Shown: positions 3,598 to 49,090 of the stretch, piece after piece
Layout of the letters: each line of letters begins with the position of its first letter
Numbering within the stretch: the first letter of the stretch is position 1
NCBI GenBank assembly: GCA_013214705.1
Contig: JABSRZ010000007.1
Location: forward strand, 67,951-131,950
Reading direction: 5' to 3'
Length of the DNA: 64,000 nt
From: Hyphomicrobiales bacterium
Lineage (GTDB): Bacteria; Pseudomonadota; Alphaproteobacteria; Rhizobiales; OSC116
Notes under the pieces: model-generated
Seen by the model: the letters and a program-made list of their open reading frames with translations, nothing else
The model's database searches: none
What the model was told of the DNA's origin: nothing
Made by a program: the position numbers and the translations under genes

Positions 3598-4305
3598 ATG
3601 CATGATTTAAATGAATTACAAAATGTTATTAATTATCAGTTTAAAGATTTAGCTCTTTTAACTCAGTCTGTTACCCACAGTAGCAGCTATTTTGACGGGC
3701 GCTCTAACCGCACAAAAAATACCTCAAATAAAAATTATGAACGGTTAGAGTTTTTGGGCGATCGGGTTTTAGGCTTGGTGATCTCAGAGTATTTGCTCGA
3801 GGCTTTTCCAAATGAAGATGAAGGCGACCTAAATTTACGTTATGCGCAGCTGGTGCGGAAAGAAGCTTGTACGACAGTGGCTCAAAATTTAAAAATTGAA
3901 AATTATATTATTTTGGGTGGCAATGAGGTTAAATCGGGCTTGAATAAAAACGCCACCATATTGGGCGATGTATGTGAGGCCATAATTGCTGCGTTATTTT
4001 TGGATGGCGGCATGGAAGTTGCAAAACCATTTATATTGAAAAATTGGCAACAGCAATTGCAGGCCAATTTGCCGCATAAACAAGATGCAAAAACGGCTCT
4101 GCAGGAATGGGCGCAAAAGTTAAAATTACCACTGCCTGCATATCGGGTTAGCCAAACCACTGGGCCTGCCCATGCGCCCAATTTTACCATAGAAGTAAGT
4201 GTTGGCGAATATGCAAAATCTAGCTCGTCGGGTACATCGAAACGCATTGCCGAACAAAAGGCAGCCACCGAATTTTTAATACGAGAAAATATTTGGTCTA
4301 ACTAG
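3598..4305 (+). CDS. rnc: Ribonuclease III
   Basis: Double-strand-specific endoribonuclease for rRNA precursor processing and mRNA/sRNA turnover. The 235-residue protein has the catalytic domain first: signature ERLEFLGDRVLG (48-59) supplies Glu51 and Asp55, and GDVCEAIIAA supplies Asp124 and Glu127. A double-stranded-RNA-binding domain occupies roughly 164-231. A polar stretch at 33-46, rich in Asn, Arg, Lys and Thr, slightly lengthens the segment before the signature. It lies between lepB and era with gaps of 13 and 10 bp, so translation is likely from a shared mRNA. Confidence 0.96.
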   Translation: MHDLNELQNVINYQFKDLALLTQSVTHSSSYFDGRSNRTKNTSNKNYERLEFLGDRVLGLVISEYLLEAFPNEDEGDLNLRYAQLVRKEACTTVAQNLKIENYIILGGNEVKSGLNKNATILGDVCEAIIAALFLDGGMEVAKPFILKNWQQQLQANLPHKQDAKTALQEWAQKLKLPLPAYRVSQTTGPAHAPNFTIEVSVGEYAKSSSSGTSKRIAEQKAATEFLIRENIWSN

Positions 4306-21686: not shown

Positions 21687-22376
21687 TTAGAGTTGAAAAC
21701 TTTTAGGTTTATCAAACTCGGTCAATCGGCTGGGGCTGGCGTCAAACACCATGCGTTTGGCAATTTGGTTGCCGGTTTTATGGTATAAATAGGCGTGGCC
21801 TAAGGGCGCGTTTATAGACGATTTGTCTGATATTTCTACGGCAATTAAGCGCCCATTATCAGCTAGTTGATCGAATAATTCTTGGCTAACAGTTTCGACC
21901 AACCCATTGATGATGATGACATCATAAGGGGCTTCTTTCTTATAGCCATTTGCCAACGGGTCTTGAATAATAACCGCATTGTCAATTTCTTGTTGTTCGA
22001 TATATTGGCTGGCTAAATTTGCCACTTTTTCATCTGATTCTATACCCACCACCATATTGGCAATTTGGGCGATTAAAGCCGTGGAATAACCGGTAGCACA
22101 GGCAATGTCTAAAACAATATCGCTCGAAGTGATGTTAACCGCTTGTACCAATTTGGCTTGCACCATCGGGTCTAAGATAAATCTGTCTTGACCATTGCTG
22201 GTGTCGATGTCTATTTTTAAGTCTCTGTCGATATAGGCGTGAGCTTGTTGCCGCTTGGGCACAAAATTTTCGCGTTTTAACTCTCTGAATGCCGCTAATA
22301 ATTGTTTAGACGTAATGGCATTTGGCAAAAGCTGAGAATTCACCATATTTTCGCGCAGAGTGTTAAAATCAGTCAT
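21687..22376 (-). CDS. pcm: Protein-L-isoaspartate O-methyltransferase family protein
   Basis: A 229-residue SAM-dependent methyltransferase of the Pcm family, which repairs isoaspartyl residues in aged proteins. The N terminus TLRENMVNSQL matches the family opening, and the SAM-binding motif I is VLDIACATGYSTALIAQIA, where the usual G-x-G-x-G is partly replaced. Alphaproteobacterial members next to tolC are often divergent from E. coli Pcm and their repair activity is uncertain. A frame runs nine codons further upstream, but the ATG at 22376 has GGAAC in place. It is divergent from the small gene at 22589. Confidence 0.82.
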   Translation of the reverse strand: MTDFNTLRENMVNSQLLPNAITSKQLLAAFRELKRENFVPKRQQAHAYIDRDLKIDIDTSNGQDRFILDPMVQAKLVQAVNITSSDIVLDIACATGYSTALIAQIANMVVGIESDEKVANLASQYIEQQEIDNAVIIQDPLANGYKKEAPYDVIIINGLVETVSQELFDQLADNGRLIAVEISDKSSINAPLGHAYLYHKTGNQIAKRMVFDASPSRLTEFDKPKSFQL

Positions 22377-22588
22377 TTTGGTTCCGTATCGAGTTAATAA
22401 CATAAGATATATGGCATATTATTTTTTGCTTCGCTAGCATATTATCGTGTTGGCTATATTTACCTCGGTTGGCTATGCAAAACTTGCATACCTACCATCT
22501 AAAAATGGCATTTCTCATGGACCGTTTTATAGGGCATAAGCACCTTATTAAATAAATAGGGTCAAACTTAAATCAAAGGACGATTATC

Positions 22589-22726
22589 ATGGGCATTAAA
22601 TCTATCAAAAAACTATTGGGCAGACGCGCTGCTTATAAAGCGTTCGATCAAATGAGCGAAACTCGGCTGCTAGATTTGGGTTTGGATTTTAACGATGTTA
22701 AAAAACGCACCGTAAAATTTGCATAA
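22589..22726 (+). CDS. DUF1127-like small protein
   Basis: A 45-residue basic protein with AAAGGA eight bases before its ATG. The sequence starts MGIKSIKKLLGRRAAYKAF and continues to a segment resembling the DUF1127 signature: LSxxxLxDxGL appears as MSETRLLDLGLDFNDVKK. DUF1127 proteins are short, Arg/Lys-rich and in Rhodobacter one (CcaF1) binds RNA and is co-transcribed with CCUCCUCCC-motif sRNAs. Here a CCUCCCCC hairpin and a terminator follow within 100 bp, which supports the assignment. It is too short for automatic detection in many pipelines. Confidence 0.75.
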   Translation: MGIKSIKKLLGRRAAYKAFDQMSETRLLDLGLDFNDVKKRTVKFA

Positions 22727-22739
22727 CCGCAAATAACAA

Positions 22740-22823
22740 ATTATTTGAATTAGAGGCCATATATCCTCCCCCGTTTATATGTGCATCTATGAGAGCCCTC
22801 TGCAGTTTTGTGGAGGGTTTTTG
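22740..22823 (+). ncRNA. Candidate cuckoo-type (CCUCC-loop) sRNA or 3'UTR element
   Basis: Directly downstream of the DUF1127-like gene a six-pair stem (CATATA 22758-22763 with TATATG 22776-22781) presents a 12-base loop containing CCTCCCCC (22765-22772). A second hairpin, CCCTC (22796-22800) with GAGGG (22813-22817), runs into five T residues and should end transcription. An anti-Shine-Dalgarno-like C-rich loop plus terminator after a DUF1127 gene is the architecture of the alphaproteobacterial cuckoo/CcsR RNAs. The family call is by pattern only; the 5' end is not defined. Confidence 0.6.
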
Positions 22824-22932
22824 TTATTCAGCTTGCACAACATTACAAAGCGATTTAATGACTAATATAACCATAACCGTTATGTTGACGATTAGGTTAC
22901 GCAAATATTTGAATTAAAAGTTAGTAAAATTG

Positions 22933-24363
22933 ATGGCTAAAGAAATACATATTATTGGCGCTGGTTTGGCAGGTTCTGAGGCCGCGTGGCAAATTGCTAA
23001 TTTGGGTGGCAAAGTTGTGCTGCACGAAATGCGCCCCCAACGCAAAACAGATGCCCACCATACCGATAGTTTTGCCGAGCTTGTTTGTTCGAATTCATTT
23101 AGAAGTGATGACAAAGATTTCAACGCCGTTGGCCTCATTCATGAAGAAATGCGCCAGTTAAACTCTATAATTTTGCAATGTGCCGATGGCAATAAAGTGC
23201 CTGCAGGTGGGGCGTTGGCTGTCGATAGGCATGAATTTTCTGCCTCGGTTACCAAAGCGTTAGAAGCCCACCCCAATATAAGCATTGTGCGCGAAGAATT
23301 TGTCGGTGATATACCTAAAGAGTGGGATGATGTGATTATTGCCTCTGGGCCTTTAACCTCAGACGCACTGTCTAAAAGCATTGCAAAACTCACAGATGAG
23401 GACGAATTGGCGTTTTTTGATGCCATCGCGCCCATTGTATATAAAGACAGCATTAATTTTGACAAAGCTTGGTACCAAAGCCGCTATGATAAAATTGGCC
23501 CAGATGGAGATGGCAAAGATTATATAAATTGCCCCATGAGCGAAGTGCAATATCATGAATTTATTGACGCGTTGATTGCAGCTGATTCGACAGAATTTAA
23601 AGAATGGGAAGGCACACCTTATTTTGATGGCTGTTTGCCAATTGAAATTATGGCCGAACGAGGCCGCGAAACCTTGCGCTGGGGGCCGATGAAACCAGTT
23701 GGTCTAACCGACCCTAAAAACCCAACCGTCAAGCCTTATGCCATTGTGCAGTTGCGCCAAGACAATAAATTGGGCACTTTATATAACATTGTGGGATTTC
23801 AGACCAAGTTAAAATACGGATCACAAGCCGATGTTTTGAGAATGATTCCCGGCCTCGATAAAGCAGAATTTGCGCGGCTTGGCGGCATTCATAGAAATAC
23901 ATATTTAAATAGCCCTATATTGTTAGATAAAAATCTGTCGCTAAAAAAACACCCTAAAATTAGATTTGCCGGCCAAATTACCGGTGTAGAAGGTTATGTC
24001 GAAAGCGCCGCATGCGGTTTGTTAGCAGGGCGTTTTGTGTTTGCCGAAGCCAATGGTGGTGCGGCCTCGTACCCGCCAGAAACAACAGCGTTAGGCGCAT
24101 TGTTAGACCACATCACCGGCGGGCATCTGGTGCATGAAGACGAAGAATTAGACATACAAAAAGCCGATGAAGCCCCCAAGAAAAAGAAAAAACGTAGTTT
24201 CCAGCCGATGAATGTGAATTTTGGACTGTTCCCACCGGTTACCTTGCCTAAAGTCGATGAAGATGGCAACCGCATTAAAGGCAAAGCCAAATCTCGTTAT
24301 CGCAAACAAATGATGAGCAAACGAGCGCTGATAGATTTGAAAATTTGGATAAAGACTTTGTAA
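22933..24363 (+). CDS. trmFO: Methylenetetrahydrofolate-tRNA-(uracil-54-C5)-methyltransferase
   Basis: FAD- and folate-dependent enzyme that makes ribothymidine at position 54 of tRNAs. The 476-residue protein opens with the FAD-binding motif [14 protein letters not shown], followed by the GidA-like [20 protein letters not shown] and CSNSFRSDD segments, and the central [12 protein letters not shown]. Near the C terminus a Lys run (PKKKKKRSF) precedes the conserved [13 protein letters not shown] lies one codon upstream, but the ATG at 22933 is the natural start. It is transcribed alone; the sRNA terminator upstream separates it from the DUF1127 gene. Confidence 0.95.
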
Positions 24364-35440: not shown

Positions 35441-35476
35441 CGGATAAGTAAGTTGGCGTGCGGATAAGTAAGTTGG
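35441..35476 (-). repeat. 20-bp tandem repeat in the chrB leader
   Basis: CGGATAAGTAAGTTGG occurs at 35441-35456 and again, identical, at 35461-35476, a period of 20 bp, 19 bp upstream of the chrB start codon. It may be a duplicated operator or promoter element, or recent slippage; no known regulator site matches it. Confidence 0.8.
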
Positions 35477-35557
35477 ACGCGAGATTTTGGCCAAAGCCTC
35501 ACGGGGCATTCGCAATCCCCATGTCGGCAAATTTGCATATTAAAGCAAATATGTCAA

Positions 35558-48780: not shown

Positions 48781-49029
48781 TTATTTTACTTCTGGTTCTT
48801 CAAAATCATAGAGTTGAATCGGTGTGGCAGGCATTATGGTAGATATGGCGTGCTTATAAACGAGTTGCGAATGACCATCCCGGCGCAACAATACGCTAAA
48901 ATTATCAAACCAAGTTACAATGCCTTGTAGCTTAACCCCATTTACCAAAAACACGGTTACAGGGTTTTTTTCTTTGCGTACATTGTTTAAAAATACATCT
49001 TGTAAATTATTCGAGCGCTCCGATGCCAT
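48781..49029 (-). CDS. hfq: RNA chaperone Hfq
   Basis: An 82-residue Sm-like hexameric protein that promotes sRNA-mRNA pairing. The Sm1 motif is [20 protein letters not shown] and Sm2 is [12 protein letters not shown], with [11 protein letters not shown] between them. The open frame starts seven codons earlier, but the ATG at 49029 has GAGGACATT and matches homologues. A sigma-70-like promoter lies about 60-90 bp upstream on this strand, and hflX follows. It is a plausible partner for the candidate sRNA at 22.7 kb. Confidence 0.97.
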
Positions 49030-49090
49030 AATGTCCTCATTCTTATTCAAACTAGAGTTTGGTGAGCTTTATAACTGGTAGCACCAAGCA

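Follow-up and report, generated by a model that had tools for sequence, protein, structure and literature searches.

Layout of the locus upstream of trmFO

The DNA analyzed here (the window) is a 64-kb stretch of a Rhizobiales genome. On its plus strand, an ORF of 45 codons (positions 22589 to 22726) starts with ATG behind the ribosome-binding site AAAGGAC and encodes a small basic protein with a net charge of about +6. Approximately 25 nt past its stop codon begins a hairpin (22751 to 22789, plus strand) with a bulged A+U-rich stem, an inner helix of six pairs, and a loop in which CCTCCCCC is found at 22765 to 22772, the loop positions of the anti-Shine-Dalgarno (anti-SD) C-run CCUCCCCC. An intrinsic terminator follows (22791 to 22823, plus strand), with a 14-bp stem (22791 to 22822), a 4-nt loop, and a run of T's, and represents the predicted 3′ end of an mRNA or small RNA (sRNA). 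The position of the locus is fixed by the downstream gene trmFO (22930 to 24363, plus strand; 63 to 69% identity to other Rhizobiales TrmFO), and a pcm-like methyltransferase gene, syntenic within the genus, lies upstream on the minus strand (21687 to 22403). A palindromic LsrB/VtlR-type box, GCTATGCAAAACTTGCATACCTACCAT (22472 to 22498, plus strand), precedes a putative −10 element, CATAAG (22535 to 22540, plus strand), assigned by its spacing to the box; transcription is predicted to start near 22547.

The initial annotation had described a 45-codon basic gene with a good ribosome site, a six-pair stem displaying a C-run near this gene, a second hairpin ending in a T run, and a C-run that differs from the canonical repeat (CCUCCCCC versus CCUCCUCCC). 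All of these hold, and the layout of a gene with an anti-SD hairpin is real. The hairpin/terminator region folds better than 200 of 200 dinucleotide shuffles (z, −4.6 to −4.9). Scanning for a C-run loop on a stem of at least 7 pairs, with a terminator no more than 75 nt away, returned this single place in 64 kb versus 0.07 expected per shuffled window. The bulged window hairpin, at −9.9 kcal/mol, ranks with the weakest in the species set. Rfam searches at the gathering cutoff and at permissive settings matched neither the window locus nor the congener loci to a relevant family. Genes for Hfq (48781 to 49050) and RNase III (3598 to 4305), cited in the initial annotation as encoded nearby, are recognizable in the window by reading; however, they are housekeeping genes 19 to 26 kb away that are uninformative on the locus, and because of this distance and role they were dropped as evidence.

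Conservation within the genus

Six genomes of the genus were compared, G000 (the window's own) to G005. Both hairpin and terminator are retained in the pcm-trmFO interval of G000 to G004, with the terminators of G001 to G004 at the same place as in G000. Loops are of the UAUCCUCCCCC type in G000, of CCCCCCUCC types in G001 to G003, and of the CCUCCCUCC type in G004, and the C-run has been retained across species despite diverging stems. MAFFT alignments of the five sRNAs misplaced the right arm, and an AGGYC anchor in the left arm was used instead. In this alignment, two-sided changes that retain pairing occur at six stem positions across species, a count that is supportive rather than a test, as it was taken from folds made species by species, which favor pairing.

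Only G000 and G004 carry the ORF, and the two copies are 82% identical. No counterpart was found at the locus in G001 to G003, where the box, hairpin, C-run loop, and terminator remain. Conservation of the loop motif and ORF in related genomes, on which the initial annotation had staked its reading, was thus found for the hairpin in five of the six genomes and for the ORF in one congener. In a TrmFO tree, G001 to G003 grouped together in 94% of bootstrap trees, while most within-genus forks stayed open. A covariance model, R1, built on G001 to G003 recovers those three and, weakly, G004 (E value, 0.007) but not G000. G005 has a different upstream neighborhood and was not matched by the model; since the model also misses G000, absence from G005 is uncertain. 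Two extra R1 matches that were inspected (L116 and L117) comprise only a terminator-like hairpin with no C-run. Searches of viral contigs identified no relative, and those of genome contigs identified one, a G004-type metagenome-assembled genome contig (JABSRY010000197.1) labeled "Hyphomicrobiales bacterium."

The 45-residue protein

Between G000 and G004, the ORF has 21 synonymous differences over 27.7 sites and 11 nonsynonymous differences over 107.3 sites (pS, 0.76; pN, 0.10), the pattern of a translated protein under strong purifying selection. The proposal that this protein is DUF1127-like stood in part. Pfam returned no match at E values up to 10, so that the gathering cutoff of PF06568 was not reached, and NCBIfam gave nothing above threshold. 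A profile made from the two copies, searched over 397 genomes of the order, found only two further places, both DUF1127 proteins matched in register (E values, 1.6e−5 and 0.006). The reverse search against the DUF1127 profile was weak, at 8 to 10 bits, with approximately 10 of 20,000 shuffles equally good. An AlphaFold model of the protein has two helices (pLDDT, 64) and is too weak for fold comparison. By similarity, the protein therefore appears to be a remote relative of DUF1127 only. The assignment is further supported because DUF1127 genes, many with CCUCCUCCC hairpins behind them, sit directly before trmFO across Rhizobiales, and this position is a stronger argument for kinship than the profile similarity.

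The LsrB/VtlR-type box and its probable regulator

The sequence upstream of the window ORF, TATGCAAAACTTGCATACC, is palindromic. The pattern TGCAN5TGCATAGC has one exact match in the 3.5-Mb genome of the window, at the window box (minus strand), and 37 near matches versus 2 for the reversed pattern. The box is found upstream of the locus in all five genus genomes that carry it. The published LsrB/VtlR motif is GCAT-N3-TG-N3-T (PMC7486931); GCATACCTACCAT at 22486 to 22498 has one mismatch to it (TA for TG), and the G004 box is exact. The distance from the GCAT of the box to the −10 element is 48 to 49 nt in G000 to G003 and in three AbcR-like units, and 49 nt, counted by hand, in G004. The predicted start near 22547 would put the window box near −61, in agreement with its counterpart in the Sinorhizobium meliloti abcR1 promoter (PabcR1), which has the same spacing and lies at −61 to −49 (PMC8844928).

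Of the other three DUF1127 genes in the window's genome, two have a related pattern in the right orientation and the third has it inverted. None of these three loci has a C-run hairpin downstream. Two neighboring DUF1127 genes (L001 and L002; G000:C34:316115-316822), likewise with no C-run hairpins downstream, have LsrB-type boxes, and their products share a C terminus (HGKVWGQF/HSKVWGQI).

The related pattern also identified an sRNA array (L047) beside trxB and a LysR-type regulator gene. Outside the window, three tandem AbcR-like units directly follow trxB-lsrB (G000:C34:407826-408460; L047:2030-2665). Each has its own LsrB-type box and, in keeping with AbcR-like sRNAs, a pair of UUCCCUCCC-type loops plus a terminator. 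No Rfam family recognizes the three units. The 295-amino-acid LysR protein matches PDB 9HH1, which is LsrB of Agrobacterium tumefaciens according to the depositing paper, over its full length (E value, 2e−109); its gene adjoins trxB, as lsrB consistently does in Rhizobiales (PMC11975290). Judged by this match and this adjacency, the protein is LsrB. For abcR1 and atu1667, binding and activation by LsrB/VtlR have been published (PMC7486931), and from its conserved box the window locus is likely regulated by LsrB/VtlR as well. The box suggests one regulon in the genus, with LsrB over AbcR-like arrays, DUF1127 genes, and the window locus. New here is the palindromic LsrB/VtlR-type box before the window locus and its counterparts in the other four genomes.

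DUF1127-trmFO loci across Rhizobiales

The best 30 Rhizobiales DUF1127 loci include near-copies from related species and are not 30 independent cases; trmFO lies directly downstream in 15 of them, and in approximately 17 the gene is followed by between one and five C-run hairpins (one locus, L058, being doubtful). In G015, the DUF1127 gene is followed by five CCUCCUCCC-type hairpins and then trmFO. At least three tandem units, each of a DUF1127 gene and two C-run hairpins, lie directly before trmFO in G012 (L135, contig C130), an array that appears as an amplification of the complete protein/RNA unit. A trmFO-linked DUF1127 locus from another family (L064, G029) has one hairpin with the loop CCCTCCCCC, a C-run of the window-like kind.

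The window gene occupies the same position before trmFO as these DUF1127 genes, and the window locus is most likely a divergent positional ortholog of the standard Rhizobiales DUF1127-sRNA-trmFO locus. The initial interpretation is partly supported, in that the comparative data make what began as a match by pattern a positional relative of that locus. The suggestion that the layout occurs here outside the groups in which it was first described was not upheld: the genome belongs to Rhizobiales, where CCUCCUCCC-loop sRNAs have been known since 2011 (PMC3927594).

Comparison with known systems

Cuckoo RNAs reportedly comprise 2 to 4 hairpins by definition. In all five genomes, one C-run hairpin precedes the terminator, and its loop carries CCUCCCCC in the window and the CCUCCCUCC and CCCCCCUCC types in congeners rather than CCUCCUCCC. 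Strict cuckoo membership of the window RNA was rejected on hairpin number and altered motif; of the proposed cuckoo-type locus, the layout of gene and anti-SD hairpin stands. The published S. meliloti members SmelA075 and SmelA099, described in 2011, likewise have anti-SD C-run loops, and several Rhizobiales loci of this kind have a DUF1127 gene upstream. These CCUCCUCCC-loop RNAs have three and four hairpins (PMC3927594), whereas the window locus has a single hairpin with a variant motif.

DUF1127 genes with CcsR-like sRNAs form the CIN1 arrangement (PMC10253847). The Rhodobacter sphaeroides ccaF1-CcsR1-4 locus shares with the window locus a small DUF1127-type gene, same-strand anti-SD C-run hairpins, and an intrinsic terminator, and this order of gene, hairpin, and terminator is present in G000 and G004 if the protein is counted as DUF1127-type. 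It differs in having four sRNAs rather than one hairpin, in its loop sequence (CCUCCCCC in the window), in a protein of 71 amino acids (CcaF1) rather than one of 45 amino acids below the Pfam threshold, and in an RpoHI/RpoHII promoter instead of an LsrB-type box; the ORF-less sister loci are a further difference.

Small protein genes behind a VtlR/LsrB box are also represented by atu1667 of A. tumefaciens and BAB1_0914 and BAB2_0512 of Brucella abortus, the products of which we take to be DUF1127 proteins. Compared with proteins of the Atu1667 type, the window protein has probably diverged much further. atu1667 is orthologous to both B. abortus genes, and Atu1667 is also called a putative sRNA (PMC7486931); no C-run hairpin is reported for any of the three in the available part of that source. 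AbcR1 and AbcR2 (alpha-r15) share with the window locus an LsrB-type box at the same distance to the −10 element, an anti-SD loop, and an intrinsic terminator. The window locus differs in its location (pcm-trmFO), in having only one hairpin, and in the protein gene that its predicted transcript also carries. The combination of one hairpin, a variant C-run, a subthreshold protein, an LsrB-type box, and ORF-less sisters sets the window locus apart from known arrangements.

Proposed function and alternatives

The preferred reading, with a probability of roughly 0.75, is that the locus encodes an LsrB-controlled DUF1127-like mRNA with an anti-SD sRNA as its 3′ untranslated region (UTR), a single-hairpin variant of the CIN1/cuckoo type. 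It builds on the conservation, stem covariation, box and spacing, synteny, selection on the protein, and ORF-less relatives observed above. Transcription, LsrB binding, RNA processing and binding, target repression, and protein activity are predicted from the DNA as follows. With the LysR-type activator LsrB/VtlR bound to the palindromic box at about −61, RNA polymerase would start near 22547 and produce one transcript of ∼280 nt, carrying the 45-residue DUF1127-like protein and then the anti-SD hairpin and terminator. The 3′ part (∼22740 to 22823), whether still within the mRNA or cut free by a ribonuclease, could work by base pairing as an sRNA: the exposed CCUCCCCC loop would pair with G-rich ribosome-binding sites and lower translation of target mRNAs, in the way that the anti-SD loops of AbcR1/2 and of S. 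meliloti NfeR1 repress mRNAs (PMC8844928). Like other DUF1127 proteins, the one encoded here probably has a modulating effect on RNA processing or on a partner protein. Which of these two routes DUF1127 proteins take is disputed, with short DUF1127 proteins of A. tumefaciens acting on partner proteins (PMC12501420); for the window protein, either a CcaF1-like action on RNA or an action on partners, as in A. tumefaciens, may apply.

When the window's genome was scanned for GGGGAGG-N3-10-ATG, nine sites were identified versus one in a reversed control, one of the nine being the locus itself, antisense. By eye, sites before long ORFs included those of a transporter permease, a chemotaxis receptor, glyS, a regulator, and a lipoprotein. 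The scan is a lead only, as any anti-SD loop would match strong Shine-Dalgarno sites.

It could instead be argued that the hairpins are a mere 3′ UTR, a protective stem and terminator that stabilize a small DUF1127-like mRNA, with a C-run that does not act in trans and a protein that alone matters. Both structures directly follow the ORF in G000 and G004, no separate sRNA promoter was identified, and purifying selection on the ORF is strong. However, this explanation is unlikely given that G001 to G003 keep the whole frame from box to terminator with no ORF, that the C-run persists while the stems diverge, and that the same genomes carry other box-controlled sRNA units with C-run loops. Distinctly improbable is a cis-acting attenuator, in which the 45-codon ORF would be a leader peptide and the hairpin/terminator would switch transcription of trmFO. 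All three elements share the strand of trmFO and closely precede it, and uORF-dependent attenuation of a DUF1127 gene is known in S. meliloti (PMC12218461), but ORF-dependent control would break in G001 to G003, which have the terminator and lack the ORF. Moreover, the ORF product is DUF1127-related and selected at the protein level, a nonsystematic look revealed no obvious antiterminator pairing, and other Rhizobiales have a DUF1127 gene and several C-run hairpins where trmFO was not found downstream. That a spurious ORF is followed by a coincidental C-rich hairpin is scarcely credible: although no RNA family or protein family model recognizes the locus, its conservation in five genomes with compensatory changes, a pN far below pS, the low expected number of such elements, and the conserved box spacing all stand against chance.

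In the three ORF-less sister species, the same box and terminator would frame a stand-alone sRNA. The ORF was most likely lost there rather than never gained, a view that draws mainly on its kinship with DUF1127 and on the DUF1127-trmFO synteny seen across the order. That a DUF1127-mRNA with a 3′-UTR sRNA became, within the genus, a stand-alone sRNA gene that kept the box, anti-SD hairpin, and terminator is slightly favored. Since G001 to G003 keep the hairpin without the ORF, the RNA may well function on its own. Species that carry the ORF and sisters that lack it, under the same box and sRNA, make both halves comparable in nature; if this reading is true, the sRNA works without a partner protein, and the genus would serve as a natural experiment for telling which half of the CIN1 module is important.

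Another RNA element in the window

Elsewhere in the window, Rfam identified a chrB-a RNA on the minus strand (35449 to 35525; 44.5 bits, cutoff 43.9). It lies at the start of a two-gene group whose products, by eye, resemble a protein of the rhodanese/ChrB type and a chromate transporter.
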